From assembly GCF_000006405.1 (NCBI RefSeq), contig NW_003207246.1, forward strand, positions 7,158 to 27,360: a stretch of DNA of 20,203 bases, in the 5' to 3' direction. A model generated the notes under the pieces. The model was not told where the DNA came from. It did no database searches and worked only from the letters and a program-made list of their open reading frames with translations. The translations under genes were made by a program, and so were the position numbers. This DNA is from Perkinsus marinus ATCC 50983 (Eukaryota > Perkinsozoa > Perkinsida > Perkinsidae). Below, one piece after another: positions 11 through 19,883 of this stretch (position 1 is its first letter; every line of letters begins with the position of its first letter).

Positions 11-47
11 CTAAGTTAGTAACTATCCGGACCAGTTACTAACTTAG
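11..47. repeat. Inverted repeat at repeat-copy edge
   Basis: A perfect 14-bp inverted repeat (11-24 and 34-47) encloses a 9-nt loop. The right arm is the start of the large direct repeat; the left arm is absent at the matching position of copy 2 (9604-9617). The left arm therefore looks like an inverted copy of the repeat edge made at this locus only. Confidence 0.7.
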
Positions 48-265
48 CAGCTCGATAGAATCGTATAGATATCGGCACATCGTTATATGTGAACCCATCT
101 CCAGGGCTGGATACAGTTGTTCTCAACAAGGTATTGGTTCCCTCCAACTTCCACTGCTTTCTGGAGCTCCCCCTCCACCACCAGAAGGCAATACGACAAC
201 TGATGGGTCGAACACGTATGCCTCTACAAGGTGAAATAATTTAGTTCATCATCACTGAGCGTTAC

Positions 266-514
266 TTGCCGTCTTACCCGAACACTTCCCATGGAGAGTC
301 ATGGCCTCCAGTAAAGGAGGGATCTGTGGTTATTGGTGACACCCTCCCAGCACAGCGTGCGTATGCTGGGGCATGCCTGACTCCGGGGGAGATATACCTA
401 GTGATTCGAGTGATCACGATATTCCAAGATGATGGTGCATCATCATTGTCCCAATCCCCCGTAGCACACAATGTGTCTTCATCGGGTGGCGGAACCCCTC
501 AGCAAAGCTTATGA
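266..514 (+). pseudogene. Conserved ORF fragment in repeat copy 1 (unknown)
   Basis: This open frame has no ATG and matches residues in the longer frame of copy 2 (9825-10100). Upstream in copy 1, TTAG replaces the ATGGAG of copy 2 and removes the start. The reading contains a WPPVKEGSVVIGD segment and a hydrophobic IYLVIRVITIF stretch. I do not recognise a family. The opposite strand (274-471) is also open in both copies, so coding on the plus strand is not secure. Confidence 0.3.
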
Positions 515-864
515 TGAGGATAGTCTATATCGATTAAGTATAAAGAGCCTGCTGCCTTGCAAGGCAGCATTCACCTGCTATTCAGTGTGGTGCTATCTCA
601 ATGGGCAAATCACTAGCAATAGATACAGTACTGTCGGGATTATGCTGAACATGAGCATAATGTGTCGAGATTGGGCAGACAGGTTGGGGAACGAACTGAT
701 GAAACTAGTCCAGCCTGCCGTGGCTTGTAGCGGAAACCGCATACTGCAATGACTTTCACTCGGTGAGTTTGCCCATGGGATCAATGAAGTATTAGTATGC
801 ATATCCGTTCAGTACGCCTTGACCCTCACCAGTAAACGGTTTCTTCCGCATAATACAGCCACAT

Positions 865-872
865 GTACATTG
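865..872. repeat. Target site duplication of hAT element, left
   Basis: The octamer GTACATTG here is repeated exactly at 2119-2126, directly abutting the two ends of the 873-2118 element. Eight bp is the usual duplication length for hAT transposons. Confidence 0.9.
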
Positions 873-902
873 CAGGGTTTGTCCATTTTGGGAATAATGG
901 CA

Positions 903-960
903 CCTTGTTCCCAATATGGGAAATTTCCCATATTGGAAAAAATGGGAAAAAATGTTTTTT
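903..960. repeat. Subterminal palindromic motif cluster, left
   Basis: A perfect 26-bp palindrome runs from CCAATATGGGAAA to its complement, followed by further TGGGAAAA words. The motif recurs near the other end of the element (2019-2105). Such subterminal arrays commonly bind hAT transposases; that role is inferred. Confidence 0.6.
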
Positions 961-1003
961 CCCTGATAAGAGGATCTACTGGCTGGCTTTTTCATCTGAT
1001 ACA

Positions 1004-1025
1004 CTTCGATGATCGAACTTCGATC
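1004..1025. repeat. Single-base-centre footprint (X=GTTCGATC)
   Basis: Two overlapping palindromes have single centre bases at 1011 and 1018, seven bases apart. The arrangement is X minus its last base, full reverse complement, X minus its first base, with one mismatch at 1004 (C where G is expected). It lies inside the hAT element. Confidence 0.7.
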
Positions 1026-1533
1026 GACAGATCAGAAACGCCTTCAAAGTCGAGGTCATGAACATACTGTTCCTTCCGAACTATGATGATGAAGAAATTG
1101 TCATATCAATAGTTACAACTTGTACACAACAGGGTACATTTTAACTTACAAGAATGGCGATCAATAGTGACAAATACCATAGAACTTGCTACCCGTTGCT
1201 GTCTATAGTCATAGAACAGGGTGTCCTCATCCTAATGCTGCTCTCGTGGTCTTCAAGGGCAGCGGCCATGTCGTACTTACCCTAGATATGATTTCTCACT
1301 AATTGTTCCAGTTATTACTATCAATCGATTGGTGTGGCGCGCGCTTTTCATTACAATTAGCTATTTACATAGGTTTATTCAAATAATCAGTGGATAGTCT
1401 ATACGTATGATGAGATCCTTATCCTAACTAATCTCGAAGTTTTTGAGTGAAGATTCAGGACATTGATTAACTGCGTTAGGGACTTCGTTCATCGCATCGC
1501 TGTTAGCTTTTTGAAACGCTACGTCTATCGCTC

Positions 1534-1794
1534 ATGATGGACCACCCATCGAAGGGAGAGTTAAAGTCTGATGGTTTCTACCAGATGTGTTATACCCCTG
1601 ATGGATGGAAGTACACATGCCACTTTTGCCAACGTCCACTCGAAGCGTTTGGTATTTGGAACAGCTGGAAGGCACGACAACATCTCAGCAGGCATCATTT
1701 TCATTTGGTCGCGGCCAACTGGCCCTCAACAATGTCCCAACTCAACACTGATATCGTATATATCGAAGTTTTGGACTCCCAAACCGTTGGATAA
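1534..1794 (+). CDS. BED/C2H2-like zinc-finger ORF inside hAT element
   Basis: This 86-residue frame starts at an ATG (MMDHPSKGEL) and lies wholly within the hAT element. Around residues 29-54 it carries CHFC, then 17 residues, then HLSRHH, a C-x2-C...H-x3-H(H) pattern with aromatic residues just upstream, as in BED-type fingers. BED fingers sit at the N-terminus of many hAT transposases and bind the transposon ends. Full hAT transposases are several hundred residues with a C-terminal dimerisation region; none of that is present. It is probably the remnant DNA-binding exon of a deleted transposase, or a short repressor-like protein. Expression is not shown by the sequence. Confidence 0.5.
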   Translation: MMDHPSKGELKSDGFYQMCYTPDGWKYTCHFCQRPLEAFGIWNSWKARQHLSRHHFHLVAANWPSTMSQLNTDIVYIEVLDSQTVG

Positions 1795-2018
1795 CTAAAA
1801 CTGAGTCAGATTTCGTGAGAGTAATGTTCGATGATAAGCGCGCTATAGAGAGATTTGTGGAGAAGCGCGCGCCCAGGGTGGGAAAAATCGCTCACACGGC
1901 TAGAACACTGCTTTTGCACTTTACTATGGATATTTAAGAACAGTGGGATAAAAATGATCGCTTTATGAGTATGACCCGTAGTTTACGCTGCTCAGGGACA
2001 GAAAAACGAGGTGTTTTC

Positions 2019-2105
2019 GCATTTTTCCCAAGGGAAAAACTGGCAGTTTTTCCGGGAACGGGAAAGTGGGAAATTTCCCAAGGGAAACTTTTCCCATTTT
2101 CCCAA
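2019..2105. repeat. Subterminal palindromic motif cluster, right
   Basis: Overlapping TTTCCC/GGGAAA motifs face each other repeatedly. A 21-bp palindrome with 10-bp arms and a single G centre occupies 2033-2053. The cluster mirrors 903-960 at the other end of the hAT element. Confidence 0.6.
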
Positions 2106-2118
2106 TGGACAAACCCTG

Positions 2119-2126
2119 GTACATTG
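2119..2126. repeat. Target site duplication of hAT element, right
   Basis: GTACATTG, an exact direct repeat of 865-872, abuts the right terminal inverted repeat. Confidence 0.9.
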
Positions 2127-2206
2127 CCTGCATATTTCTCATATCCTCACTGCTTCCGTCAATCGAACGCCCAGTCATCACTCCAACCTGGACTTCGACA
2201 TATTAC

Positions 2207-2228
2207 GCATGCTGACCATGCCATGCTC
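2207..2228. repeat. Footprint shared by both repeat copies (X=GCATGCTC)
   Basis: The 22-bp pattern matches the perfect one at 11043-11064 except for one substitution in the middle block (GACCATGC instead of GAGCATGC). Its presence in both copies means this event preceded the duplication. Confidence 0.7.
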
Positions 2229-2537
2229 TACACAAATTCTTGTGAAATTCTCGTTGGATTCTCTACATTTCTACCCGAACTCGTATGTGAGTCCTAAGTC
2301 ATATGTAAACATATATTCCTCTAACATTGCACCCACAGCACTTCTGTCGTCCCCGGTAACTGTCCTTGCGTTCTGTCCAGCTGCTCTGTATCATCTTACC
2401 ATATATAATCCAGCATCTGTCCATCTCTATGGCTCAGATCTTGGGGTTGCTGTGTGTGCGGTATTTCAGAATCAATCCGCGTCATGAGGTCATGAACTTG
2501 CTCTACGAATCTCGGCGAGATCTTATGAATTCTCTAA

Positions 2538-2750
2538 CTATGACGCAATAGCAATCGATGGGTACCTATTAACTCGTTCGACATCGTTTCGCATCTTTCG
2601 AATGATCTGCTGAGTTACTTGCGTCCGACAGATGAGCTGATCTCGTTTCGCTTGCATCTTCATATACACTGGTCGCCCATCGTAGTCTTCGTCCAGACGT
2701 TCATATATCCCTGCAACGATAGAATCTTCGCTGTGCGAGATTTCACTCTC
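2538..2750 (-). CDS. Conserved minus-strand exon-like ORF, copy 1 (unknown)
   Basis: On the minus strand 71 codons stay open, ending at a stop at 2540-2538. The reading contains YERLDEDYDGRPVYMKMQ and VTQQIIRKMRNDVERV, a charged, helix-prone, coding-like composition. There is no ATG near the upstream edge; an AG acceptor (GGTAG) sits at the in-frame stop bounding it, so it is best read as a last exon. The equivalent frame at 11375-11587 in copy 2 has exactly the same length, with several substitutions but no indel. With 2844-3044 upstream it could form one spliced gene. I do not recognise the family. Confidence 0.4.
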   Translation of the reverse strand, partial: ESEISHSEDSIVAGIYERLDEDYDGRPVYMKMQAKRDQLICRTQVTQQIIRKMRNDVERVNRYPSIAIAS

Positions 2751-2843
2751 CTACCATTGATTCTCTGATCAGACCCTTCCCTGCCTGTTATGATAACCAT
2801 ACTATACATGCAGGATCCTCTAGCACTACTCCGCTTTCCTCGA

Positions 2844-3044
2844 CTACCGGTGCCTAAAGGACAGTCTCTTCTTAATCAGCCACAAGAAGGGACTTGATAG
2901 ATCTTCCGTGCCTCTCGTTAATCGCATGCTTAAGCGTGATGAGGACTTCTTTATATCAATAGTGTCCTTCAGGAAGGGGCTTAACGGTGCCTTTAGAGCA
3001 GTCGACTCAAAAGGCTGAGGTAAAGTAACGTTACATGTTCTCCA
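2844..3044 (-). CDS. Conserved minus-strand exon-like ORF, copy 1 (unknown)
   Basis: A 66-codon open frame runs on the minus strand to a stop at 2846-2844. A likely splice acceptor, ACTTTACCTCAG, lies inside its 5' part, and the frame after it reads PFESTALKAPLSPFLKD and then RGTEDLSSPFLWLIKKRL. Copy 2 keeps the same frame and length at 11681-11881. A GT donor candidate (CACCG/GTAGTC) precedes the stop in copy 1 but is lost in copy 2. A further short open stretch, MRTDVGSEFTSANEGV, lies upstream (about 3145-3069) in both copies. The product is unknown; it could be a degenerating transposon gene. Confidence 0.4.
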   Translation of the reverse strand, partial: WRTCNVTLPQPFESTALKAPLSPFLKDTIDIKKSSSRLSMRLTRGTEDLSSPFLWLIKKRLSFRHR

Positions 3045-3046
3045 TT

Positions 3047-3067
3047 ATCATCATCATCATCATCATC
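3047..3067. repeat. (ATC)7 microsatellite
   Basis: Seven ATC units. The matching site in copy 2 (11884-11898) has five, so the tract has changed length since duplication. Confidence 0.9.
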
Positions 3068-3177
3068 GAATTTCACTTTGGATATTGTCGATTACACCTT
3101 CGTTAGCCGATGTGAATTCACTGCCGACATCAGTTCGCATCTTCCTCATTCCCATCAAAATGCTATGGGAGGGAGTT

Positions 3178-3800
3178 GCCACAAACCACTTTCCATAATC
3201 GGAAACGGTCGCATGGTAATAGTGTTGGTCATAAGGCAATCACTCGAGGGAGTCGCCACACACCACCTTCCTTGATGGGAAACGGTCGTATGGTAGTAGT
3301 AGTGTCGGCCATGAGGCCATCAGGAGAGGGAGTTGCAACACACCACCTTCTTTGATGAGAAACGGCCGTATGATAGTAGCAGTGTTAGTCATAAGGCCGT
3401 CACTCGAAGGGAGTTGCCACACACCACCTTCCTTGATCGGAAAGGGTCGCATGGTAGTAGGGTTGGTCATAAGGCAATCACTTGAGAGGGTCGCCACATA
3501 CCACCTTCCTTAATGGGAAACGGTCGTATGGTAGTAGGGTTGGTCATAAGGCAATCACTTGAGAGGGTCGCCACACACCACCTTCCTTAATGGGAAACGG
3601 TCGTATGGGATTAGTAGTGGCGGCCATAAGGGCATCAGTCGAGAGAGTTGCCACACACCACCTTCCTTGATGAGAAATGGCCGTATGGTAGTAGCAGTGT
3701 TAGTCATAAGGCCGTCACTCGAGGGACTTCCTCGGAGGGGTCGCCACAAACCACCTTCCATGATCGGAAACCGTCATATGGTAGTAGTAGTGTTCGACTC
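3178..3800. repeat. Minisatellite, eight 77-93 bp units
   Basis: Units start with GCCACA at 3178, 3255, 3335, 3416, 3493, 3570, 3650 and 3743, spaced 77, 80, 81, 77, 77, 80 and 93 bp. Each carries a CACCACCTTCC word, a CGTATGGTAGTAG word and a GGTCATAAGGC word. Two length classes alternate, which suggests higher-order amplification. Open frames across it arise because some unit lengths are near multiples of three and are not taken as genes. It begins just beyond repeat copy 1. Confidence 0.9.
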
Positions 3801-3814
3801 GAACAATGTTCGAG
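3790..3814. repeat. Single-base-centre footprint (9-bp X variant)
   Basis: Overlapping palindromes are centred on C3798 (7-bp arms) and A3806 (8-bp arms). The middle block CTCGAACAA implies a 9-bp X, with one mismatch at 3790; net gain 16 bp. It sits exactly at the minisatellite end. Confidence 0.6.
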
Positions 3815-3994
3815 CCTAATAGCTCCGGTCGCGGTGGTTCCTATGGTTCCACAGTCTATCGTGTGTATGGCAAAGTCGGCCGGACCACTCTGCAACTTGT
3901 TCTTGCGGGTCCGTATCAGGGTCCTATTAATAAGTCTGACATCTTAGCATGTCATTATTTGAATACCCGTCCATCCGGGGGGCATGTCGAGTAG
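3806..3994 (+). CDS. Small ORF, unknown
   Basis: Sixty-two codons start at an ATG that lies within the palindromic footprint at 3790-3814. The frame reads SSGRGGSYGSTVYRVYG and then TLQLVLAGPYQGPINK, which looks coding-like, but no family is recognised and no homologous copy is available in the window. It may be an exon whose original start lies elsewhere. Confidence 0.25.
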   Translation: MFEPNSSGRGGSYGSTVYRVYGKVGRTTLQLVLAGPYQGPINKSDILACHYLNTRPSGGHVE

Positions 3995-4525
3995 GATTGT
4001 CGGTGCACAGCTTTGTGCGGTCAGAGTAGAACAATGAATATACGTGCAGTATGACAGGTGATTAGCCTCACCCGAGCCTTATTCGTCTCATGAGATTTAC
4101 TTGTTTGTACGCTAGTATCCTTTGATTTCCCTTGAGACCATAATGGCATCTAGCAGTCAATTAGCCGATGGGGCACGCTCTGGGGCGGGGAACATGGCAC
4201 GGATGCGCACAGTTACTGTGCGCAGCCGAAGGTTGGCTGCTCGCACTCGTTAACTTAGAATTCTACATCGACACTGTTTGAGGAAAAAACAGTCAATTTC
4301 CACGGCTCGTTCAATTTGAAGTTTCTAATTTTCAGCTCTCAGTGTACACAGGTCGCCCGTGCATGAATTGCGATTCACGAATTCTGTTAGTTTGTGAAGA
4401 CGTTTGAACATCCAGGGCTCTCCACCCCTGGAGTACGCAAAGCCGTCTCCCTAGAGTTTGCGGCCTAGTATAAAAATAGGACCGAATAGCCAATAAGTCA
4501 CTGATATAGCATATTTGCATACGTC
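3995..4525. other. No supported gene
   Basis: I see no convincing reading frame here. The stretch holds one notable palindrome (4204-4224) with 10-bp arms and a single T centre. Confidence 0.5.
4204..4224. repeat. Single-base-centre palindrome
   Basis: Perfect 10-bp arms (TGCGCACAGT and its complement) flank a single T at 4214. The third block of the usual footprint is not recognisable, so this may be a trimmed version or a chance palindrome. Confidence 0.55.
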
Positions 4526-4890
4526 ATGTGCTCCTTCATTCTTCTCATCGCTTTGTTCACTGTCTTGGGCAGCGGGTACGATATCAGGAAATTGAGTGTG
4601 GAAGCCCCCGAGCAGTGAGAACAGCTACGACTTCATTGACTGAACTCGAAGTAATTGTTCGATTAGGTCGTATGACGGGAGCATCGACCAGGGCCAGAAT
4701 ACTGGTGAAGGAGCATCTGGAATCCTGTAGCGATCGCTGTATGCTCATGTCAGATACTGGTGGGCTGGTGTGGGACTCGGGTCTGCCATACTACGGCAAA
4801 CCCACGGATTGCACTTGGTCCGGAGGAAGAAGGGTCGGGAACTGTGATTGCCCGAACCAACAGAGCAAATTCGCCATCAGCGTAGGCTGA
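4526..4890 (+). CDS. Possible small secreted protein, frame unresolved
   Basis: An ATG at 4526 opens MCSFILLIALFTVLGSG, a good signal peptide, but this frame stops at 4616-4618 after 30 codons. A second frame (phase of 4528) is open across the same start and runs to 4890. Its C-terminal part is cysteine-rich (ESCSDRCMLMSDTGG, then PTDCTWSGGRR and NCDCPNQQ), as in a small secreted domain. A short intron or a frameshift between the signal peptide and the cysteine-rich part would join them; I could not find a donor-acceptor pair with matching phase. It is either a real secreted gene with an unusual intron or a recent pseudogene. Confidence 0.35.
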
Positions 4891-5203
4891 TCACGTGAAA
4901 GCGCCCTCGACCTCTCCCATGTAGACCCCTGACGGTGAAATAGGCTACGCGATCTGCGCTAAGGAATGCACAAAAGTCTCGGATTGTCCTCCGGCTCCTG
5001 GAACTGAAAGGGTTGATGTCGAGTGCATTTTGGGTCGCTGCCTTCTGGACTGTTCGGGCATGTTCGAGGTAGGTTTTAGTCAGAATTTTCCCGATATGCA
5101 GCTTGTCTCATTCAGTACTGCATAGAACTGTTTTCTTCCGTTTGTGTGGACTACCAAATGGGATTGGCAAAAGGCACCATGTGCCAATGGGAACTTCCAA
5201 GGA

Positions 5204-5225
5204 CTTATCAATGATAAGTTATCAT
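5204..5225. repeat. Perfect 22-bp footprint (X=CTTATCAT)
   Basis: Blocks are 5204-5210 (X minus its last base), 5211-5218 (full reverse complement) and 5219-5225 (X minus its first base), with no mismatch. Single centre bases are A5211 and G5218. Confidence 0.85.
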
Positions 5226-5315
5226 CAGTCTGATCAGACTCTCTATCACGGATAATATATCTTCATTTGCCATCGGATTACTCAGGATGCGCAGTGATAA
5301 TTTTCATGGAAGTTT

Positions 5316-5332
5316 AATCAACTTAGTTGATT
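5316..5332. repeat. Single-base-centre palindrome
   Basis: Eight-bp arms (AATCAACT and its complement) surround T5324. Only the first bases of a third block (TCA) follow, so it may be a trimmed footprint. Confidence 0.5.
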
Positions 5333-5767
5333 CACTTTCATGATGGTTTATTCTTCTTCGTCTTAAAGGAACGCAGTTGTGTTACCACCGATCATTTAAC
5401 CTCTAATTAACAAGCGATGCACAACTTCGTGCTTCCGCCAGACCTGGACCACTCAACGCATAGTGTTGAACGCAACGTCGCCGCTTGGCGAGACGTGTGC
5501 AGCACTGGCTAGACCCGTCCGGCCGGACCGTTTGGTGTGCCATGCATGAGCCGAATCGGCCCCATCACATCATGTACTCGTAAGTGATGGTTATGGAACA
5601 GTCAAGCTTACTTGCAAGACGGTCTAGTCAAGACCTGAGTCACCAGTGCGAGCACAACCACACAAACAAAATCGAGAGTGCGGTAACTTGTGTCGTCGGT
5701 GAGCGAAGGAGACCGTTACAGTACTGCACACGTACGAACGCCACAGACATCTAGGAGGAATGTCGTA

Positions 5768-5802
5768 GCCTGTACAGTACAGGCCTGTAGTAACTACAGG
5801 CC
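5768..5802. repeat. Double single-centre palindrome
   Basis: The first palindrome has 8-bp arms around A5776 (5768-5784); the second has 10-bp arms around A5792 (5782-5802). They overlap through GGC. The two implied X words share only TACT, so this is not the standard 8-bp form. Confidence 0.65.
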
Positions 5803-5935
5803 CTGTTATGAGTAGCTCTTCGTATATGAATATCTTCCACTCCGCAGTTGCGTCGCAAGTTCTTTTATCTTCTCCCCGCCCCCCTCTCCCGGTTGAATCA
5901 CTTGGCTGAGACTGCTCGTAGGCCGACCTGCGGAG

Positions 5936-5988
<53 letters not shown>
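5936..5988. repeat. (GTA)n microsatellite at LINE 5' end
   Basis: An uninterrupted GTA/AGT tract of 53 bp. The LINE body starts directly after it, and AGT repeats recur at the LINE 3' end (8336-8362). Serine-run or tyrosine-run frames across it are artefacts. Confidence 0.95.
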
Positions 5989-5992
<4 letters not shown>

Positions 5993-6388
5993 CAACGGAT
6001 AAGAAAAACTGGTTGAATCAACAGGCAGAAAAAGCTGAAGCAGCAGCTAGGATTCATAATCTAAAAGCGTTATTCTCCATTGTCAAAATGCTGGGAGGCA
6101 AAGCGAGTAAGGGTGTGGATCTGACAGGGATGGATGTCGATAGATTTGTAGAGCACTTCAATGAATTATTGGGTGAACAGAAGGTAGAAAGGAACGAGGA
6201 ATATGAGAAAAGGAGGGGCTTTCGCATTGCTAAGGAGTTGGCCGAGGTAGAAGGAGAGCCGTGGGAGGTGTCTATTGCAGCTCCGGATGATGAAGAAATT
6301 GAGAAATTATGTAAGCGAATGAGAAATGGTAAAGCCGTTGGTATTGATGAGATTCCCTCTGAGTTATTCAAGCATTCGGAGGAATGTC

Positions 6389-6426
6389 GCAAGGTCACCT
6401 TGCAACATTGCCACCTTGCCAAGGTG
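6389..6426. repeat. Double-form footprint in RT frame (X=GCAAGGTG)
   Basis: Order: X minus last base (6389-6395), reverse complement CACCTTGC (6396-6403), filler AACATTGC (6404-6411), reverse complement again (6412-6419), X minus first base (6420-6426). Single centres are C6396 and C6419. Net gain is 30 bp, so the frame is kept. Confidence 0.8.
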
Positions 6427-7582
6427 TTGGGCGTAGTGATCAGAGGGTTCTGGAGAGGACAGCCGTTGCCCGAGAAGAGTCATACAGCTGTATTGATCAC
6501 TTTATTTGAAGGAAAAGGGAGTAGGAAATCACCTGAGGGTTATCGAGGAATATCGCTTTTATCGTATTTGGAAAGAATCATATCGGCAATTGTATTAGAT
6601 AGGATCAAGGAAGCTGCTGAGAAACGATTAATGAAATATCAGTTCGGTTTCACGTCTGGTAACAGCTGTAGAGATCCCGTCCGTCTACGGTGGAAGAAAT
6701 GGGAGAGTACAAACCAGATCGCATCAGTCTTCGTGGACTTCCAGGAAGCCTTTGATTCTTTGTCATGGGAAGCTTCGTGGAAAGTCTTGAAGTCGGCTGG
6801 AATGCCAGTTTTCCTGGTCCATATAGTAAAAAGGATTCATGCGGATGCTAGAGTTGCTATAAGAGTGTCACAAAATGGTAAGGTCTCTGATGTTTTCAGC
6901 CAGAGAGTAGGGGTTCGTCAGGGTTCTTGCTTGTCTCCTGTGATATTCATATTGGTATTAGATCATTGTTTGAAAGCGGCACTGAAAGCGTGCCAGGAAA
7001 GAGGTTTGGTTGTGGAATGGCTCGGTTATGCTGATGATTTGTATATTGCCGGGGAATCCGCAAGAGACGTGGAGATATTTCTGCAGGAACTGCAAGCAGC
7101 TGCCTATTATGTCGGACTCTTGATAAATGCTGGGAAGAAAGTGGCCATGGTGAAAGGTACGGATAGTAGCAAAATTGTTCTGATTGAGAGGCGTGAGGAA
7201 AGAGTGGGGGTGAAATGGGATGACGGTACGTATGAAGGATGGCTTAGGCCTCTAGAGGATGGGAATGTGAATGCCTCGTTCCAGCCCACGCATGAAATTA
7301 TTTATGATGACGGTAGCACTGTAAAGTATATTGTCAAGAAGGCGGGGTGGATAGTGGATGAGGACGGGGATAAGTTGAGGATGATGAAACTTGGTTTCGA
7401 CCGAGCAACGGACTCAACAGAGAAGTGGGTGTGTCCTTCCTGTGGGAGTACCTTTCATTGTGAAAGAGCCCTCAAAACGCATGTTAGATTAGGTCAGTGT
7501 GCTAGTTATACAGATCTCACTACCGAGAGGCAAAGAGCCTTGAGGAAGAGTAGAATGGTCGGGAAGTACAGGAGAGGGGTAG

Positions 7583-7626
7583 TAGAGAAACTTTCTCTAA
7601 CTACCCCTCTTTCTCTGAGAAAGAGG
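7583..7626. repeat. Double-form footprint in LINE (X=AGAGAAAG)
   Basis: Order: X minus last base (7584-7590), reverse complement CTTTCTCT (7591-7598), filler AACTACCCCT (7599-7608), reverse complement again (7609-7616), X minus first base (7617-7623). The filler is A plus the inverted copy of the flank at 7575-7583, so the left palindrome extends to 7573-7610 with one bulge. Net gain is 32 bp and shifts the frame. Confidence 0.82.
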
Positions 7627-7662
7627 TTGAGGAAGTCTGTATTCAACTAGTCGAGGGACAGA

Positions 7663-8302
7663 AATTGAAATGTGTAGGGTCAATGGTGTATTTGGGTACC
7701 TTGCTCACAACGAAAATAAAACTAACCAGGGAAATAAACCGGAGAATTGGAAGGGCGACTGCTGTGTTGAACACAGCGTGTTCAACGATCTGAAAAACAT
7801 CTGGAAGGCTAGGGGAATTCTCGCCACCACCAAAAAACGTATTTTCAAGAGCTGCGTAATGAGTGTTCTTCTATACAATTGCGAAACCTGGGTGTACGTC
7901 AAGAACGATGCGGAAAGGTTGCAAAGGTGCTGCAACAAATTGGTTAGCAATATCATAAGGTGGGGTCGAAACACTAACCAGTCGAATAATGGTGATGTTG
8001 ATGGTGAGTTCGATTGTAAAGTGGGTGAGACTGAAATACTGGACTGGTTGGAAGGCTCTACCGTTAAGGAGATTATGAATCAGAGACGTTTACGTTGGTT
8101 TGGTCATGCTCTGCGGCAACCTAGGGATGCGGTTCAAAGAGAATGGATAGAATCGGAGATTGAATCTGATTCGAAGTGGTTGAAGCTTGTCAAACAGGAT
8201 GTGGAGGATCGTGGAGGAAGATGGAGAAACATCAGGGAGAAAGCCATGGACAGAGGGAAATGGCATAAATTTACTATTATTCGGAGCGCGCTTGTCCCTT
8301 AG
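7663..8302 (+). pseudogene. LINE C-terminal domain in two displaced frames
   Basis: The first part (phase of 7665, about 7623-7768) reads KCVGSMVYLGTLLTTKIKLT and REINRRIGRATAV, the standard segment after a LINE thumb. Then a 14-bp palindromic insertion at 7762-7783 moves the frame. From 7784 to 8302 another phase reads NDLKNIWKARGILATTKKR, LYNCETWVYVK, QRRLRWFGHALRQPRDAV and a GGRWRNIREKAMDRGKW tail, the usual C-terminal domain of this LINE group. Without the two insertions (32 and 14 bp) the reverse transcriptase and this domain form one open frame from 5989 to the stop at 8300-8302. Confidence 0.85.
7762..7783. repeat. 22-bp footprint in LINE (X=CTGTGTTC)
   Basis: Blocks are 7762-7768, 7769-7776 and 7777-7783; the third has one mismatch (C7777 where T is expected). 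The centre G7769 is the complement of the last base of X, as the rule requires. Net gain is 14 bp and shifts the LINE frame. Confidence 0.78.
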
Positions 8303-8335
8303 CTGGATTGAAGCGCTCAATGAATGAATGAATGA

Positions 8336-8362
8336 AGTAGTAGTAGTGGGAGTAGTAGTACT
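8336..8362. repeat. AGT repeats at LINE 3' end
   Basis: Imperfect AGT repeats follow a GAATGAATGAATGA run just after the LINE stop codon and match the tract at the LINE 5' side. Confidence 0.8.
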
Positions 8363-8405
8363 AGCAAAAAAAGAGTTGGCTGCTTTTGGAGTGATAATAC
8401 ACACG

Positions 8406-8422
8406 ACTATTGTAACAATAGT
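8406..8422. repeat. Single-base-centre palindrome, trimmed footprint
   Basis: Eight-bp arms (ACTATTGT and its complement) flank A8414. With X = CTATTGTT, the following TGTT is the last four bases of X, so the third block appears trimmed. Confidence 0.6.
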
Positions 8423-8424
8423 GT

Positions 8425-8446
8425 TATGAGACTCTCATAATGAGAG
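8425..8446. repeat. Perfect 22-bp footprint (X=TATGAGAG)
   Basis: Blocks at 8425-8431, 8432-8439 and 8440-8446 fit the rule without mismatch. The site is nested in a larger inverted repeat whose outer arms AGTGTTATGA and TCATAACACT remain when the footprint is removed. Confidence 0.85.
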
Positions 8447-8634
8447 TGTCATAACACTGAGGTACTCGCTGCTGCGGTTGCCAATTCCGAGCTATGAAAA
8501 GAAGACTCTAATTTGCAGCAAATCAGAGAGGACAGGAAGTGAGTGATGGTAGAGATATCTATCCAGAAACCTATAGTGTTCCCGGGGGGAAACTCATTTT
8601 CAATTTTCTATACGACTAGGAACACATTATTCAA

Positions 8635-8838
8635 TTAATTTCCCATGTAGACGTTTCTCTTTGTCATCAAACCCCGGAAAACGTTGTTATCTCCCAATGC
8701 TGGATAAGTATGTAAATCGTCGATCACAGATATGGGGCGTTCGATCAAGTTGATTGCTCTAATCTGTCTGAGGAAACTAAAGTGAAGTTCTTCACTGAAC
8801 ATCTCCACGTAGATGAGGAAATTAGACTCATCACCCAT
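8635..8838 (-). CDS. Small ORF or exon, unknown
   Basis: From an ATG at 8838 the minus strand encodes 67 residues, beginning MGDESNFLIYVEMFSEEL and continuing FLRQIRAINLIERPISVID and NVFRGLMTKRNVYMGN. The mix of charged and hydrophobic residues is typical of a folded protein rather than of noise. No family is recognised and no second copy exists in the window. It could be a first or only exon; TAG repeats lie just upstream on the opposite strand. Confidence 0.4.
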   Translation of the reverse strand: MGDESNFLIYVEMFSEELHFSFLRQIRAINLIERPISVIDDLHTYPALGDNNVFRGLMTKRNVYMGN

Positions 8839-9617
8839 GGCGTCGGGTAGTAGTAGTAACAGAAGTTATATAGCGATGCCAAATACGGGGTAGGTACTTC
8901 GATATCCGCGATGCGGATGATAAGTGGATCAGGATTAAAATTGGTAGTGGCGCGCTGATTGTAAGTCAGTTCGAGCTCTCTCTGTGTAAGCGTCCCTATA
9001 GATTCTTCCTCCCGGAATCTGGCACAGATTCTGCGTCTCTGAGGAGAGCCCCTGTCTTCAAGCTGTGAGGCTCTTCACCAACGAACCTAAGTGGACCGCT
9101 TACCCACGTCAAGGTAGTAGTTGTAGTAAAATAGATAGGCCTTGAACTTCTACAGGTTCCCTCGACAAAGATGTGATAGAGGCGGCTCGGGATGATTATA
9201 ATAATAATACTATGAACGTCAAGATAGCTGCGTGAGGAGACCATTCCGATTAAGCGATGTACTTTCTTTCATGTTAGCAAAAATTACGATGATTTTCTTG
9301 ACTTTTCACCACAACAGTATTTTGAGTTCAGTTGATCTGGCGAGAGTAGGATAAGCGTTGCTCAGTTATTGCCCTTCGCGACAACGGTCTTTAAAAATGA
9401 GTGTAATAAGCACAATCCCGTCGATAACTAACCGCTGTAGTCAGTATGTATGCTATACGTTGCCCTGGCGTTAACTGTGTGAGCAGGTCCGATTCGCCCA
9501 ATATGAGTTACGGAACGTGAAGTAATGAACACAATACTTTTCGGCAACAATTTCTTCGTAAAAGGCTTTCTCTACATTATGCAGTCCGTAGTGTTACGCA
9601 CTACCGCACACTAGGAA
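8839..9617. other. No supported gene between LINE and repeat copy 2
   Basis: No convincing frame. The minus-strand frame at 8996-9244 is a low-complexity isoleucine/threonine reading and is not supported. A 7-bp inverted repeat with a 3-nt centre (GAATCTG...CAGATTC) lies near 9014-9030. Confidence 0.4.
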
Positions 9618-9824
9618 CAGTTACTAACTTAGCAGCTCGATAGAATCGTATAGATATCGGCACATCGTTATATGTGAACCCATCTCCAGGTCTGGATACA
9701 GTTGTTTCTCAACAAGGTATTGGTTCCCTCCAACTTCCACTGCTTTCTGGAGCTCCCCCTCCACCACCAGAAGGCAATACGACAACTGACGGGTCGAACA
9801 CGTAGGCCTCTACAAGGTGAAATA

Positions 9825-10100
9825 ATGGAGTTCATCATCACTAAGCGTTACTTGCCGTCTTACCCGAACACTTCCCATGGAGAGTCATGGCCTCCAGTAA
9901 AGGAGGGATCTGTGGTTATTGGTGACACCCTCCCAGCACAGCGTGCGTATGCTGGGGCATGCCTGACTCCGGGGGAGATATACCTAGTGATTCGAGTGAT
10001 CACGATATTCCAAGATGATTGTGCATCATCATTGTCCCAATCCCCCGTAGCACACAATGTGTCTTCATCGGGTGGCGGAACCCCTCAGCGAAGCTTATGA
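9825..10100 (+). CDS. Conserved ORF in repeat copy 2 (unknown)
   Basis: From an ATG at 9825, 91 codons read MEFIITKRYLPSYPNTSHG, then WPPVKEGSVVIGD and YLVIRVITIF, to a stop at 10098-10100. The open frame extends upstream of the ATG to 9702 without a further Met. Copy 1 has lost the ATG. Only a few differences separate the copies in this region, most of them changing a residue. A tail domain of a mobile-element polyprotein is conceivable, but no diagnostic motif is visible. Confidence 0.3.
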   Translation: MEFIITKRYLPSYPNTSHGESWPPVKEGSVVIGDTLPAQRAYAGACLTPGEIYLVIRVITIFQDDCASSLSQSPVAHNVSSSGGGTPQRSL

Positions 10101-10274
10101 TGAGGATAGTCTATATCGATTAAGTATAAACAGGCTGCTGCCTTGCAAGGCAGAATTCACCTGCTTTTTAGTGTGGTGTTATCTCAATAGGCAAATCACT
10201 TAACAATATATACAGCAATGTCGGGATTATACTGAACATGATCATAATGTGTCGAGATTGGGCAGATAGTTTGG

Positions 10275-10837
10275 TGAAGCCGCCGGTGCACAGGAGATCG
10301 GGAGAAAGGTATCGGAGACTTGACGTTCCTCAACGAGTCGCCGATTCGGGTTTCGTCAATGACGACCTGGCAGCCAGCCTGGCTGAGCCAGGTCCTGGCT
10401 ATCACGCATCAATATCAGGAATCGAGTCTGGATGGCACTGGTGGTAGATCTGAACTCTACCACTCCGCCAACTAGGCTGCATGGACGTCAAGTCTTCGAA
10501 CGCAGGCCTAGCGATCCGTATTGCCACCGAGGTTACTCAACCGAGTAGAGCATCAGGATCACAGCTCTCTCCTGCACGGGCGGGATGGGTTGGGTAAAGA
10601 AACTCGAGGCATGGCCTTCCTTACTACATGATCACTCCAGTTCATCAGTAAACTGATGAACATACCTCATGAGAGGTTGACTTAACACATATCCTTTGCG
10701 GTGAGTATGAAACTGCGACAAGACAACTCCTTGCGTTCGCCTTTGGCTCGCGCCGACATGCGTCGAGATCGTACTGGGCTTTCAGGCTCTCTCCTGTTAT
10801 GGCTCTTTCACTCTCCGTACCTGAACGATACTCCCCA
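10275..10837. other. 563-bp block specific to repeat copy 2
   Basis: The block lies between TTTGG and GGAACGAAC, which are adjacent in copy 1. I see no terminal inverted repeats and no target duplication beyond G residues, so it may be a deletion from copy 1 rather than an insertion. It contains a perfect footprint (10371-10392) and an inverted repeat, GTGGTAGA...TCTACCAC, near 10440-10462. No gene is supported. Confidence 0.6.
10371..10392. repeat. Perfect 22-bp footprint (X=CAGCCAGG)
   Basis: Blocks at 10371-10377, 10378-10385 and 10386-10392 fit the rule without mismatch, with single centres C10378 and G10385. Confidence 0.85.
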
Positions 10838-10854
10838 GGAACGAACTGATGAAA

Positions 10855-10932
10855 CTAGTCCAGCTAAGCTGGACTAGCGGAATAACGTATGAATGTCATT
10901 CATACGGCTACAAGCCTTGCCAAGGCTTGTAG
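10855..10932. repeat. Cluster of three single-centre palindromes
   Basis: Three perfect palindromes stand in a row: 11-bp arms around A10866 (10855-10877), 10-bp arms around T10896 (10886-10906) and 12-bp arms around C10920 (10908-10932). Copy 1 (698-733) has only the outer sequences, the CTAGTCCAG side and the GGCTTGTAG side. The inner halves therefore look like inverted copies of both flanks plus a palindromic filler. Confidence 0.85.
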
Positions 10933-11042
10933 GGGAAAGCACATACTGCAATGATTTTGACTCGGTGAGTTTGCCCATGGGATCAATGGAGTATTAGTAT
11001 GCATATTTGTTCAGTACGCCTTGCCGGAATTCGACACATTAC

Positions 11043-11064
11043 GCATGCTGAGCATGCCATGCTC
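11043..11064. repeat. Perfect 22-bp footprint (X=GCATGCTC)
   Basis: Blocks 11043-11049, 11050-11057 and 11058-11064 fit the rule exactly. The same event is seen in copy 1 at 2207-2228 with one later substitution. Confidence 0.82.
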
Positions 11065-11130
11065 AACACAAGTTCTTGGGAAATCCTTGTTGGTTTCTCT
11101 ACATTTCTACCCGAACTCATATGTAAAGTC

Positions 11131-11322
11131 CTAAGTCATATGTAAACATATATTCTTCCAACACTGCACCCACAGCACTTCTGTCGTCCCCGGTAACTGT
11201 CCTTGCGTTCTGTCCAGCTGCTCTGTATCATCTGACCATATATAATCCAGCATCTGTCCATCTCTATGGCTCAGATCTTGGGGTTGCTGTGAGTACGGTA
11301 TTTCAGAATCAATCCGCGTCAT
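11131..11322 (-). CDS. Minus-strand ORF in copy 2, truncated in copy 1
   Basis: The 63-codon frame starts MTRIDSEIPYSQQPQDLS and continues QMLDYIWSDDTEQLDRT and WVQCWKNICLHMT. It lies downstream of the 11375-11587 frame on the same strand. In copy 1 a TCA codon has become TAA after DYIW, so that copy is truncated. The product is unknown; it may be another exon of the repeat-borne gene. Confidence 0.3.
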   Translation of the reverse strand: MTRIDSEIPYSQQPQDLSHRDGQMLDYIWSDDTEQLDRTQGQLPGTTEVLWVQCWKNICLHMT

Positions 11323-11374
11323 GAGGTCATGAACTTGCTTTACGAATCTCGGCGAGATCTTATGAGTTCTCTAA

Positions 11375-11587
11375 CTATGACGCAATAGCAATCGATGGGT
11401 ACCTATTAACTCGTTCGACATCGTTTCGCATCTTTCGAATGATCTGCTGAGTTACTTGCATCCGACCATTCAGCTGATCTCGTTTCGCTTGCATCTTCAT
11501 ATACACTGGTCGCCCATCGTAGTCTTCGTCCAGACGTTCATATATCCCTGCCACGATAGAATCTTCGCAGTGCGAGATTTCACTCTC
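11375..11587 (-). CDS. Conserved minus-strand exon-like ORF, copy 2 (unknown)
   Basis: This is the counterpart of 2538-2750, with identical length (71 codons) and the same stop. It reads EDSIVAGIYERLDEDYDG, then DQLNGRMQVTQQII. Differences from copy 1 include a cluster (NGRM against ICRT) and at least one silent change (a valine codon). The absence of any indel or stop in either copy suggests the frame was under constraint when the copies separated. No family is recognised. Confidence 0.4.
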   Translation of the reverse strand, partial: ESEISHCEDSIVAGIYERLDEDYDGRPVYMKMQAKRDQLNGRMQVTQQIIRKMRNDVERVNRYPSIAIAS

Positions 11588-11680
11588 CTACCATTGATTC
11601 TCTGATCAGACCCTTCCCTGCCTGTTATGATGACCATACTATACATGCAGGATCCTCTAGCACTACTCCGCTTTCCTCGA

Positions 11681-11881
11681 CTAGCGATGCCTAAAGGACA
11701 GTCTCTTCTTAATCAGCCACAAGAAGGGACTTGATAGATCTTCCGTGCCCCTCATTAACCGCATGCTCAAATGTGATGAGGACTTCTTTATATCAATAGT
11801 GTCCATCAGGAAGGGGCTTAACGGTGCCTTTAGAGCAGTTGACTCAAAAGGCTGAGGTAAAGTAACGTTACATGTTCTCCA
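11681..11881 (-). CDS. Conserved minus-strand exon-like ORF, copy 2 (unknown)
   Basis: This is the counterpart of 2844-3044, with the same length (66 codons plus stop) and the same internal splice-acceptor candidate ACTTTACCTCAG. It reads PFESTALKAPLSPF and TEDLSSPFLWLIKKRLSFR. Changes from copy 1 include a silent serine codon change and a Lys-to-Met change. The GT donor seen before the stop in copy 1 is CT here. The product is unknown. Confidence 0.4.
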   Translation of the reverse strand, partial: WRTCNVTLPQPFESTALKAPLSPFLMDTIDIKKSSSHLSMRLMRGTEDLSSPFLWLIKKRLSFRHR

Positions 11882-11979
11882 TTATCATCATCATCATCGA
11901 ATTTCAGTTTGGATATTGTCGACTACACCTTCGTTAGCCGATGTGAATTCACTGTCGACATCAGTTCGCATCTTCCTCG

Positions 11980-12000
11980 TCCTCAGATGAGGACCTCATC
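11980..12000. repeat. Footprint variant present only in copy 2 (X=TCCTCATC)
   Basis: The left block is X minus two bases (11980-11985), then the full reverse complement GATGAGGA (11986-11993), then X minus its first base (11994-12000). Net gain is 13 bp. Copy 1 at 3149-3156 has a single X-like word, so the inserted bases can be read directly. Confidence 0.75.
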
Positions 12001-12139
12001 AAAACGATATGTACAACACAAGGAACTTCTACTCGGTGGCATCTTAATGTAACGCAGAGCTCGCAAAAGCAATCGTAAAAGTAGCAACAATAAACCGCGC
12101 TGATGTCAACAACGGTTCTGTTTGCCGAAACTAGCAACA

Positions 12140-12198
12140 ACTTGCTAGTAGCAAGTACTTGGTATCACCAGGTACTATTAGTAACAGTCTGTTACTAA
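12140..12198. repeat. Cluster of three palindromes
   Basis: Palindromes are centred on G12148 (8-bp arms, 12140-12156), on 12165 (12154-12176, one mismatch and a 3-nt centre) and on T12188 (10-bp arms, 12178-12198). They touch or overlap, like 10855-10932, and lie just beyond repeat copy 2. Confidence 0.75.
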
Positions 12199-16978: not shown

Positions 16979-18148
16979 ATGCGGTTACGCTGTGTAGAGC
17001 TGCTATTGTCCCTTCGCGGATGCTGTGGGGTAACGGCTTCTGGAAAACACCCTTTCATTCAAGTCTTCGCTGAGGATTTGGTCGCCACCGCGCCACTGGA
17101 GAATCTATTCCTCTGCCCGATGAATGTAACAGATGGTGTGAACTTAACGTCCTGGCCGTCAAAGGAGGTTACTATCAACGGTACACTTTGTATGGATTAT
17201 GATGAGCTCATGGAGTTCAACGGCAGAGGAGATTTTTTGAAGTGTTTAACGGAGGTGATCAACACCACCACACATGCATTGGACAGGTTGGGTGTCGATG
17301 CGGCCATCATCGATGGTACTTTGATAGGTTGGCAGCGACATGATAAGAATCATATACCCTGGGATGTCGATGGCGATCTCCTCATCATGCAGAGTCATTG
17401 TCGGAAGGCCTTCTCTACCCACGCCACCACCCATCATAAGAACATGGCATCCCTTCTACAGGAGTATCTACTCGACGACTCCCGCTATCGTGTGGCTGGT
17501 ATCGTATTCGGTGTCGGATCCGAATTGGACCCTAATGAGTGGGAAGGCTGTGAGGTATCGGAACTCCGCGTTATCCACTACTCTGACAGTAGCACTTGTC
17601 ATGTGGACATCTTTCAGCTAGTTCAGTCCTCCGACCCCGATCATCCTTGTGAGGATTGTCCTGGTTTCAACTCGAGTAAAATCGTTACTTGCCGTCATCA
17701 GCAACATAATGCTTGTGGATTGTATGAAAACTACTTCCCAACTAGATGGGACCATATGGACGCCGATGGAGATGTTAAGGTGCCGAATAATGTTTCGGAA
17801 GCCCTTAAATCTGAGTACGGAACATCCCCTTTAAGCCTTCTCAACCTCCAGAAGATTCCTGGTAACTACGAATTCCATAGCACAATGCTTGTGGTCGGCC
17901 GAGCAGCGATCTCAATAGAACAAATCACCACTCGGAAACCTGTTGATAAATTCCTTTCCGGTGCCGAGTTGGCTGGTCTCACTCGCGTTTCGGAGAGCGC
18001 GGTATTAGACTCTCACAATAGTCGTAACAATTTCCCAGCGGTCTCCATTTATTTGTCTTTGCTTTTTTTATTCGTTCTTATTTTGATTTGGCGGTTTTTC
18101 AAATATCGTCATTCGCTCATCGGTGGCTCCCGTATGATACGAGCGTAA
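16979..18148 (+). CDS. LicD/fukutin-like phosphotransferase-fold protein A
   Basis: This 389-residue protein carries the LicD/FKTN core: IIDGTLIGWQRH (about residues 110-121) followed by IPWDVDGDLLIM (126-137). This matches the family pattern of a GxLLG...R...IPWDDDxD motif, in which the aspartates bind the metal and nucleotide-sugar or CDP-alcohol donor. Family members transfer phosphocholine or sugar-phosphate groups to glycans. The N-terminus is weakly signal-like (VELLLSLRGCCGV), and a strong membrane segment, IYLSLLFLFVLILIWRFF, lies near 357-374 with a short basic tail, so a luminal or extracellular domain anchored at its C-terminus is inferred. Cysteines and N-glycosylation sites (NVT, NLT, NGT) fit a secretory route. 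The closest relative is the next gene. Confidence 0.85.
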   Translation: MRLRCVELLLSLRGCCGVTASGKHPFIQVFAEDLVATAPLENLFLCPMNVTDGVNLTSWPSKEVTINGTLCMDYDELMEFNGRGDFLKCLTEVINTTTHALDRLGVDAAIIDGTLIGWQRHDKNHIPWDVDGDLLIMQSHCRKAFSTHATTHHKNMASLLQEYLLDDSRYRVAGIVFGVGSELDPNEWEGCEVSELRVIHYSDSSTCHVDIFQLVQSSDPDHPCEDCPGFNSSKIVTCRHQQHNACGLYENYFPTRWDHMDADGDVKVPNNVSEALKSEYGTSPLSLLNLQKIPGNYEFHSTMLVVGRAAISIEQITTRKPVDKFLSGAELAGLTRVSESAVLDSHNSRNNFPAVSIYLSLLFLFVLILIWRFFKYRHSLIGGSRMIRA

Positions 18149-18390
18149 AATTGGGTTCATTTCACTCTTCGCTGTTATCAGCTTTTCTGTGGTGATTACG
18201 TCCGGGCATTCAGCCTTGGCACGATGACAATATATTTATCTTTCAGCATGTAGGTTTCGAGTTCAACCCGGGTCTTAGCAATCCGTCTTCGCCGTACCTT
18301 ACAGTGGGCGGCGCGTGCAGCTCTGATCGTTGCCTATGTGGTCCCTTCAGTGTTTTCTTCTCATCATACACTCACTGGCCTCCCTACTGG
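18149..18390. other. Spacer between LicD-like A and B
   Basis: Short intergenic spacer. The frame of gene B is open upstream to 18304 without an ATG; the ATG at 18391 gives a better signal peptide and is preferred. Confidence 0.5.
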
Positions 18391-19734
18391 ATGTGGATTT
18401 GTCGCTTTATAGGCATCTTTGCTGTTACTATTGAGGCTGAGAGGTTCATTCGAGTCTTTCCCGAAAAGGAGGTTGACCATGCGCCATCGGAGAATCTATT
18501 CCTCTGCCCGATGAATGTAACAGATGGTGTGAACTTAACGTCCTGGCCGTCAGAGGAGGTTATTATCAACAGTACACTTTGTATGGATTATGATGAGCTC
18601 ATGGAGTTCAAGGGCAGAGGAGATTTTTTGAAGTGTCTAACGGAGGTGATCAACGTCACCACACATGCATTGGACAGGTTGGGTGTCGATGCGACCATCA
18701 TCGATGGTACCCTATTAGGTTGGCAACGACACGATAAGAATCATATACCCTGGGATGTCGATGGCGATCTCCTCATCATGCAGAGTCATTGTCGGAAGGC
18801 CTTCTCGACCCACGCCACCATCCATCATAAGAACATGGCATCCCTTCTACAGGAGTATTTACCCGATGATTCCCGCTATCGTGTGGTCGCCGTCAAATAC
18901 GGGATTGGCTCTGAATTGAGCCCTGACGAGTGGGAGGGTTGCAACACTAGCGAGATACGTGTCACGCACAACTACCACGGCGTCTCCTGCCATGCCGACG
19001 TCTTCCAAATGCTTCAATCGAGCGATCCCGGCTCGCCCTGTGGTCGCTGCCCTCTTCCTGTCAACGCATCACCATCGTCCACCATCACCGTATGTCGGTC
19101 TTCCCCCGGTGACCAGTGTGGCCTTCTGGATGACCTACTACCGACTCGATGGGATCATATGAACGGCGTAAATGTTCGAGTACCCGCCAACCCAGAGGCC
19201 GCCCTCAAGTCGCACTTTGGCCCCACTAGTTTACGTCTGATTAACATGAAAGAGATCCCCCGCAATTACAAGTACGGCTCCTATCGTTTGGTAGTTGGTC
19301 AAACACTTCATGACGAAATAGCTCATAAGCATTCACCCAACTTCGATGCTCAACACGCGAAGCCCCTCGAAAACTCGAGCCTCACGAAGGAGGATATCAG
19401 TTCGAAGGTGTTTGCAGAGACTACCGCTGCTAACCCAGTGATAATAGTAAGTCCTAAGAACACATCTAAGGGATCACTAGCATCCCCGTCATATAATAGC
19501 ACAGTCACTCTAAGAGAAGTGGAGACTACCTCATTATTGGAGTCACATCAACCCTTGAAGGAATATTCTAATCCCTTCATATCGGTGTCTTTCGTAGCTT
19601 GCATGTCTTTTTTTGGTATAGCACTGTTGTATTTTTTCGTATTCAAAAGATTTCGTTCCACAAGCATTCCGTCATCTACTTCAACTCCGTCATCTTCCTA
19701 CCGCCAAGTTCGCAGCCCTCCGAATAGTGTGTAA
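18391..19734 (+). CDS. LicD/fukutin-like phosphotransferase-fold protein B
   Basis: From ATG 18391 the protein is 447 residues. MWICRFIGIFAVTIEA is a plausible signal peptide. The catalytic block IIDGTLLGWQRH (about 103-114) and IPWDVDGDLLIM (119-130) is nearly identical to gene A. The 398 bp from 18489 to 18886 match gene A at about 95% by eye, after which the proteins diverge sharply. The C-terminal half has its own Cys pattern (CGRCPLPVN, CRSSPGDQCG), a Ser/Thr-rich stalk, and a membrane segment, VSFVACMSFFGIALLYFFVF, near 398-417 with a serine-rich tail. A type I membrane enzyme of the secretory route is inferred. The substrate is unknown. Confidence 0.87.
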   Translation: MWICRFIGIFAVTIEAERFIRVFPEKEVDHAPSENLFLCPMNVTDGVNLTSWPSEEVIINSTLCMDYDELMEFKGRGDFLKCLTEVINVTTHALDRLGVDATIIDGTLLGWQRHDKNHIPWDVDGDLLIMQSHCRKAFSTHATIHHKNMASLLQEYLPDDSRYRVVAVKYGIGSELSPDEWEGCNTSEIRVTHNYHGVSCHADVFQMLQSSDPGSPCGRCPLPVNASPSSTITVCRSSPGDQCGLLDDLLPTRWDHMNGVNVRVPANPEAALKSHFGPTSLRLINMKEIPRNYKYGSYRLVVGQTLHDEIAHKHSPNFDAQHAKPLENSSLTKEDISSKVFAETTAANPVIIVSPKNTSKGSLASPSYNSTVTLREVETTSLLESHQPLKEYSNPFISVSFVACMSFFGIALLYFFVFKRFRSTSIPSSTSTPSSSYRQVRSPPNSV

Positions 19735-19883
19735 CACTACCATGGAGCGGTTGGTTGCGGAAAGGAGACAGACGTTTGTGTCGTTACATTCAATCCATAC
19801 ATGTGCGTATCATTTGTATTTCACCCAAGCCCTTCCGTTTGCAGTGTTCATTGAGTGTAGACTATCACAGGTTGGCTTCCATC

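Follow-up and report, generated by a model that had tools for sequence, protein, structure and literature searches.

Recurrent 22-bp forms built on an 8-bp word in the Perkinsus marinus genome, probable scars of hAT-type transposons

The window analysed here, the whole stretch of 20,203 nucleotides of Perkinsus marinus ATCC 50983 DNA (G000:C194:7158-27360, in an assembly of 54.46 Mb and 347 contigs), repeatedly carries a 22-bp form in which an 8-bp word X without its last base is followed by the complete reverse complement of X and by X without its first base (X[1-7] + revcomp(X) + X[2-8]). We call these forms footprints or scars and list them in Table 1. The region around them contains a long interspersed nuclear element (LINE; reverse transcriptase PF00078 within 5935-7647), repeats and tandem arrays. 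A large repeat is present in two copies (29-3147 and 9614-11978, ~95%) which differ by blocks, 822-2189 being confined to the first and 10279-10912 mostly to the second, and likewise by adjacent one-base-centre palindromes near 10845-10932 (partly by eye). TAG arrays flank the LINE on both sides (5936-5992 and 8336-8360), as they do in its truncated copy L034, and lie at the 3' side of the LINE copies L035 and L036; the LINE may insert into, or extend, the TAG microsatellite.

Table 1. Footprints and related forms in the window (positions are those of the window; mismatches are counted against the 22-bp form).
Position	Form	X	Net gain (bp)	Remarks
1004-1025	footprint, 1 mismatch	CTTCGATC		empty copies L096, L097; scar kept in L098
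2207-2228	decayed footprint, 2 mismatches	GCATGCTC		repeat copy of the 11043 site
5204-5225	footprint, exact	CTTATCAT		pattern scan
5310-5331	footprint, 1 mismatch	AAGTTGAT		pattern scan; absent from the preliminary description
6389-6426	double form in LINE, exact, two revcomp(X) blocks	GCAAGGTG	+30	
7584-7623	double form in LINE	AGAGAAAG	+32	
7762-7783	footprint in LINE, 1 mismatch	CTGTGTTC	+14	
8425-8446	footprint, exact	TATGAGAG		further palindromes around
8432-8453	footprint row, 2 mismatches			overlaps 8425
10365-10400	nested pair, outer word X1	ACCTGGCT	+28	
10371-10392	inner footprint of nested pair, exact, word X2	CAGCCAGG		
11043-11064	footprint, exact	GCATGCTC		pattern scan
12131-12155	related form, 11-bp middle	CTAGCAAG		
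12174-12195	footprint, 1 mismatch	ACTGTTAC		pattern scan; absent from the preliminary description

A preliminary description of this DNA had named four exact cases (5204-5225, 8425-8446, 10371-10392 and 11043-11064), all of which are exact as claimed, and three near-perfect ones, of which 1004-1025 and 7762-7783 have one mismatch and 2207-2228 has two. Its chance expectation of 7e-5 per 20 kb (20203/4^14) is also correct. The four exact cases stand against none with words of 7 or 9-15 bases in the window, while shorter words of 4, 5 and 6 bases give 6, 3 and 2 exact counts; six further rows have one or two mismatches, one of them (8432) overlapping 8425. The footprints at 2207 and 11043 are carried by repeat copies (2190-3147 and 11026-11978) that are 95% identical; they represent one event in two repeat copies and are therefore not independent cases. 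For the footprint at 5204 no second copy appeared among the matches listed in the genome search, and a 24-mer spanning the 8425 footprint occurs once in the genome.

The main sample comprised 31 genomic loci, totalling 198,835 bp after removal of overlaps and duplicates; 13 of them were placed arbitrarily (126,419 bp) and the others taken because of hAT or other matches. It contains 33 exact 22-bp forms with 32 distinct words at |X|=8, compared with 1 exact form at |X|=7, 5 at 6, 7 at 5 and none at 9-15, so that the length of 8, whose dominance the preliminary description had wanted examined, does prevail. When the |X|=8 forms are sorted by centre offset of 0, 1, 2 and 3, the counts are 0, 33, 0 and 0, i.e., the palindromes have one-base centres. 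The form is commoner than in shuffled-type sequence, as five simulated Markov sets gave no exact form at |X|=8; an earlier 190-kb set held 30 exact forms, 31 with one mismatch and 22 with two, and simulated sequence none. Chance is contradicted by the Markov controls, and together with assembly or sequencing artefact it has next to no probability as an explanation. Template switching during replication at short inverted repeats (quasi-palindrome mutation) can set inverted copies between direct ones. However, it predicts a spread of lengths and centres, whereas |X|=8 with a one-base centre dominates, and we regard it as extremely improbable.

Among the 13 arbitrarily placed loci, six exact forms were found at |X|=8 and none at 6, 7 or 9-12, with 25 forms at up to two mismatches. 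The load is uneven, as five of the 13 are devoid of any form at up to two mismatches and L004 alone holds 9 of the 25, and the extrapolation to the genome (~2,600 exact forms, ~10,800 at up to two mismatches) is therefore very rough. Control patterns termed "reverse only" and "direct" yielded 0 at lengths 8 and 9 in the sample; some counts at lengths 6, 7 and 10 perhaps stem from TAG arrays. 8-mers repeated without any middle are in excess (729 vs 55), in a count that took in the loci L033 and L037, both repeating part of the window.

Copies showing the site before the event, as the preliminary description had suggested looking for, were found for 19 sites (15 simple, 2 double and 2 nested). 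Eleven of these derive from a genome-wide search for other copies of 38 footprint sites (24 + 14), from which selected matches were fetched, and eight from direct comparisons of repeats or LINE copies. The empty copies are shorter by 14 bp at simple forms, 30 bp at 6389, 32 bp at 7584 and 28 bp at the nested forms. Within the LINE, the 14 bp at 7762 are missing from L034, L035 and L036, the 32 bp at 7584 from L034 and L035, and the 30 bp at 6389 from L035. The comparison is reciprocal, as L035 is empty at the window's 7762 site and itself bears a footprint (X=ACAGAAAT) at a position where the word occurs once in the window. Copies of a hAT gene form a second reciprocal pair, in which L028:90 is empty in L030 and L030:2314 is empty in L028; L028:1771 is also empty in L030 (with an alignment gap split 11+3), and L004:6319 in another L004 copy. 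The genome-wide search provided empty copies for L007:4481 (two), L008:4810, L016:4259 (three), L020:1227 (word diverged), L022:680 (five), L028:2801 (two), L030:625, L030:1183 (three, by eye) and window 1004 (two), and for the nested cases L004:4053 and window 10371. In some copies (e.g., L085, L077) the single word at the empty site has partly diverged. Matches on C266, C296 and C89 look filled by their broken alignments and are in fact empty sites unbridged by BLAST.

Scars are kept in diverged paralogs: that of L030:3037 occurs in L094 (89%), that of window 1004 was read in L098, and that of window 11043 is also present in the repeat copy at 2207. As diverged copies retain them, the scars are inherited, and footprints common to diverged paralogs refute an assembly or sequencing artefact. 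Further copies have the same length and are taken as scar-keeping by length only, namely those of L011:1231, L007:2454, L030:1183 (C321), L004:4711, L011:1698, L007:8752, L007:4481 (C237:336095) and L008:4622 (C243). Other length differences were recorded as well: -7 in copies of L028:2689, -33 in copies of L022:963 (from the search listing), 0 to -9 in distant copies of L008:4622, -43 in a copy of L026:1892 and +36 at about 70% in a copy of L026:1782; the L022:680 site in L075 has a longer related form. L076 was considered as an empty copy of L004:3589 and was rejected and left uncounted, because the right-side homology is too short.

Two insertions of another kind were seen in these comparisons. 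At the site of window 1004, L095 (G000:C160:400-720) carries a patchwork of 74 bp, short pieces of which also occur in the flanks of this copy, and which is perhaps a templated filler or repair product. In L035, a 286-bp insertion (2603-2888) lies at the position of window 6767. It ends in TGTAG...CTACA, has no clear 8-bp duplication and bears an exact 22-bp footprint of its own (L035:2633); its ends are unlike those of hAT elements, and we rejected it as a member of that group.

Resident hAT elements are present in the genome, with the hAT dimerisation domain (PF05699) at 14 places. The family hAT-A measures 4,339 bp with ends CATAC...GTATG. Its copies on C79, C157 (4,341 bp) and C333 have 100% identity across the 2,398 bp for which all of them were compared. 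Shorter relatives (~1.43 kb) have both ends in common with it, mostly at 92-94%. Matching 8-bp duplications flank 11 of the 15 copies checked; two others lack a duplication, one borders a gap and one has a misplaced end. At three hAT-A insertion sites, other genome copies read as clean empty sites. A hAT-A relative was also seen inside one unit of a ~373-bp tandem array (L042 and L043, G000:C282), the unit of which seems, by eye, to contain a tRNA gene.

The words at which these elements reside and the words in the footprints lean to the same motif. We compiled 17 resident words (11 two-sided and 6 one-sided, 2 of the latter from another hAT locus), in which T2/A7 occupies 23 of 34 half-sites; in 78 footprint words it occupies 62 of 156 (p=1.6e-4). 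Both lean to nTnnnnAn, the pattern reported for Hermes target duplications (PMC2803484). With a matrix built from the 17 resident words, footprint words receive higher scores than genomic 8-mers (p=2e-5), a result equalled by 4 of 2000 column permutations. The length of X alone would also suit another transposon with 8-bp duplications, e.g., a Mutator-like element, as the duplications of Muta1 are reported to be 8 or 9 bp (PMC5225508). Forms with 9-bp words, however, are absent (0 exact in the 31 loci), the lean of X to nTnnnnAn contrasts with Muta1, for which no apparent target preference is described, and the word "hairpin" is absent from the main text of the Muta1 paper (PMC5225508). We consider an origin of this kind very unlikely.

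The forms could arise as follows. A hAT-type cut-and-paste element would duplicate an 8-bp target X on insertion and leave at some later time. Its transposase would nick one base outside each end and both flanks would be sealed as hairpins. The single base at the apex would be complementary to the last base of X in the left hairpin and to the first base of X in the right one. Deep nicks in the hairpins, often past X, would then create 3' tails both containing revcomp(X): the left hairpin would read x1-x7 x8' x7'...x1' and the right one, on the same strand, x8'...x1' x2-x8. The part shared by both tails would be revcomp(X), and annealing over X, followed by trimming of the flaps, filling of the gaps and ligation, would leave X[1-7], revcomp(X), X[2-8] with a net gain of 14 bp. 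Tails joined end to end, sometimes at a few matching bases, would give the double forms. Annealing would yield the 22-bp form at any nick depth, provided that the tails jointly cover X. The simple form, in which the tails may have been deep as well, is therefore silent on depth, and depth has to be read from the double forms.

A scan for forms with a doubled revcomp(X) block yielded 19 rows, whereas both controls yielded 0. Five of the rows come from the 40-bp tandem repeat of L011 and three are overlapping readings of L029. In that tandem repeat (L011:915-1030), a one-base-centre palindrome was seen in each unit. Both double forms of the preliminary description were recovered, 6389-6426 as an exact case, while the one given as 7583-7626 runs from 7584 to 7623. 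Tail lengths were measured for nine hand-picked double forms. The clearest cases are L026:1892 (24 and 20 nt, with a 6-base overlap), L027:2345 (19 and 11 nt) and L029:2346 (13 and 16 nt, with six bases of filler); in these three, the palindromes extend through X into the flanks. The remaining tails measure (14,8), (9,11), (7,8), (12,8), (10,7) and (1,9) nt, the first pair belonging to window 6389 and the second, read gap-free, to window 7584, where the left tail, judged by eye, would reach ~18 nt with one extra base permitted. Palindromes that continue past X indicate that some events involved the opening of hairpins as far as ~24 nt from the tip, in agreement with the deep opening postulated in the preliminary description. 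Short middles are in mild excess in the sample (2 bp: 13 vs 6.8 expected; 3-7 bp: 8 vs 4.4 expected), and near-tip opening therefore seems uncommon here; in this respect the sample does not fit the classical short hAT footprint, with its P insertions of a few nucleotides.

The tails also bear on a variant of hAT excision in which one hairpin is nicked at a fixed distance of 8 nt from its tip, comparable to the stagger of the transposase itself, and joined to an apex-opened hairpin without annealing. Tails with p+q=8 would yield a sequence identical to that from annealing, and 3 of the 18 double-form tails are exactly 8 (window 6389, L022:187 and L022:510). The other 15 differ from 8, however, and the 16-bp middle predicted by a fixed nick on both sides was seen in 0 cases, which makes this variant an unlikely alternative to annealing of deep tails.

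Nesting, with a further 8-bp word inside the first scar, is seen at L004:4053 and at window 10371. Compared with window 10365-10400, L081 has X1 once and lacks the 28 bp. It additionally lacks 29 bp lying outside the nested scar, just upstream of it (window 10336-10364); a short one-base-centre palindrome, TCGTCA A TGACGA, is held by this segment across its end.

Several observations weigh against an origin of the forms from departed hAT elements. No element was found at the footprint word of the 38 sites (best 40 of 64, 103 and 145 candidates scored), nor a 22-bp scar at hAT-A insertion words (best 40 of 83 candidates scored). Other copies exist for 8 of 11 hAT-A insertion sites among the matches listed, all of them scar-free by length or by reading, seven copies at three sites having been read. 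Some copies of the C79 site are 5-12 bp longer, with the difference lying away from the word in the three that were read, and C304:38600 has a different junction and no recognised element. Taken alone, the 29 exact footprint words show no significant excess of T2 (19 of 58, p=0.23), and footprint words are short of T at position 1 whereas resident duplications are not. Absence of Ku as a cause of annealing repair likewise finds no support: Ku matches are present (two partial ones on C267, one of them above the cut-off), as is a family-A polymerase, and the scars are not to be explained by a missing classical end-joining route.

The hAT excision proposed in the preliminary description is nevertheless supported by the 8-bp length, the one-base hairpin centre, the presence of hAT transposases, the resident 8-bp duplications and the shared lean to nTnnnnAn. 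We consider it highly probable that the 22-bp forms are scars of departed hAT-type transposons, made by deep-opened flank hairpins that annealed through X; the link rests on form, length, motif and resident hAT elements and not on direct descent. With less confidence, we favour the view that this lineage routinely opens hairpins far from the tip and anneals the full duplication, that most hAT excisions leave an exact, self-verifying 22-bp scar, and that the thousands of scars are a record of excisions which far exceed the resident elements in number and include repeat visits to one spot. Mre11-Sae2 as the hairpin nuclease is only an idea; it is reported to cut 5' strands inward from an end at 40 up to 200-300 nt (PMC7260605), a distance exceeding the tails observed here.

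Elsewhere in the window, tandem repeats with units of roughly 75-80 bp occupy 3169-3794 (self-matches), and tandem LicD-family genes lie at 16979-20203, with Pfam LicD matches in the first two and the third recognised by eye only. The LicD-family protein of 16979-18145 has 95% identity to a Perkinsus marinus protein (P0001) over 83% of the query.

Traces of excision are usually ambiguous, and past transposition is therefore counted from the copies that remain. With its 14 internal matches, a scar of the present kind is recognisable from sequence alone, carries its target word and decays with age, and would allow excisions to be censused in any assembled genome, even one without a remaining transposon. 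Such scars would also document, under natural conditions, the opening and joining of hairpin-capped breaks in a protist, which is otherwise investigated by means of engineered assays. Their absence from other hAT-rich genomes would indicate a lineage-specific hairpin nuclease or end-joining route.

The preliminary description knew of no described repeat class of this kind. This is too general, since palindromic hAT footprints are known, but the fixed full-word form as main product seems new: no report of it was found in the literature searched, although subscription papers may describe it. In the repair of mPing excision, annealing takes place at the target duplication, as it would here; mPing is, however, a different type of element (a Tourist MITE) and its repair is precise, according to the title of the report (PMC4561436). 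TcBuster in human cells resembles the present case in its inferred flank hairpins, flank-complementary insertions and 8-bp duplications, and differs in insertions of only a few nucleotides, deletions to 50 bp and duplications of the type nnnTAnnn instead of nTnnnnAn (PMC3499496). Hairpin-capped flanks such as those proposed here are reported for Hermes and Kat1 (PMC2803484, PMC4763223). The Hermes duplications share the lean of our words, and Kat1 ends begin with GTATAC, compared with CATAC...GTATG in hAT-A; in the consulted parts of these two papers we found no genome-wide scar of the 22-bp form. A further parallel is Ac/Ds, whose footprints in yeast, Arabidopsis and Candida albicans contain palindromic P nucleotides centred, as here, on the complement of the transposon-adjacent base (PMC5873905, PMC1978519; see also Yu 2004, Huefner 2011 and Lazarow 2012, as cited in PMC5873905). 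Microhomology is reported to be common in these footprints (85 to nearly 100% in Arabidopsis, 88-89% in yeast), and palindrome arms in yeast reach up to 20 nt (PMC5873905, PMC1978519). Favourite products per site are likewise on record, with 11 of 17 in one case (PMC1978519) and 35 and 18 of 128 in Candida albicans. The Ac/Ds footprints are reportedly mostly short, with no single form across sites, whereas in the Perkinsus genome the whole inverted 8-bp word is the main product.

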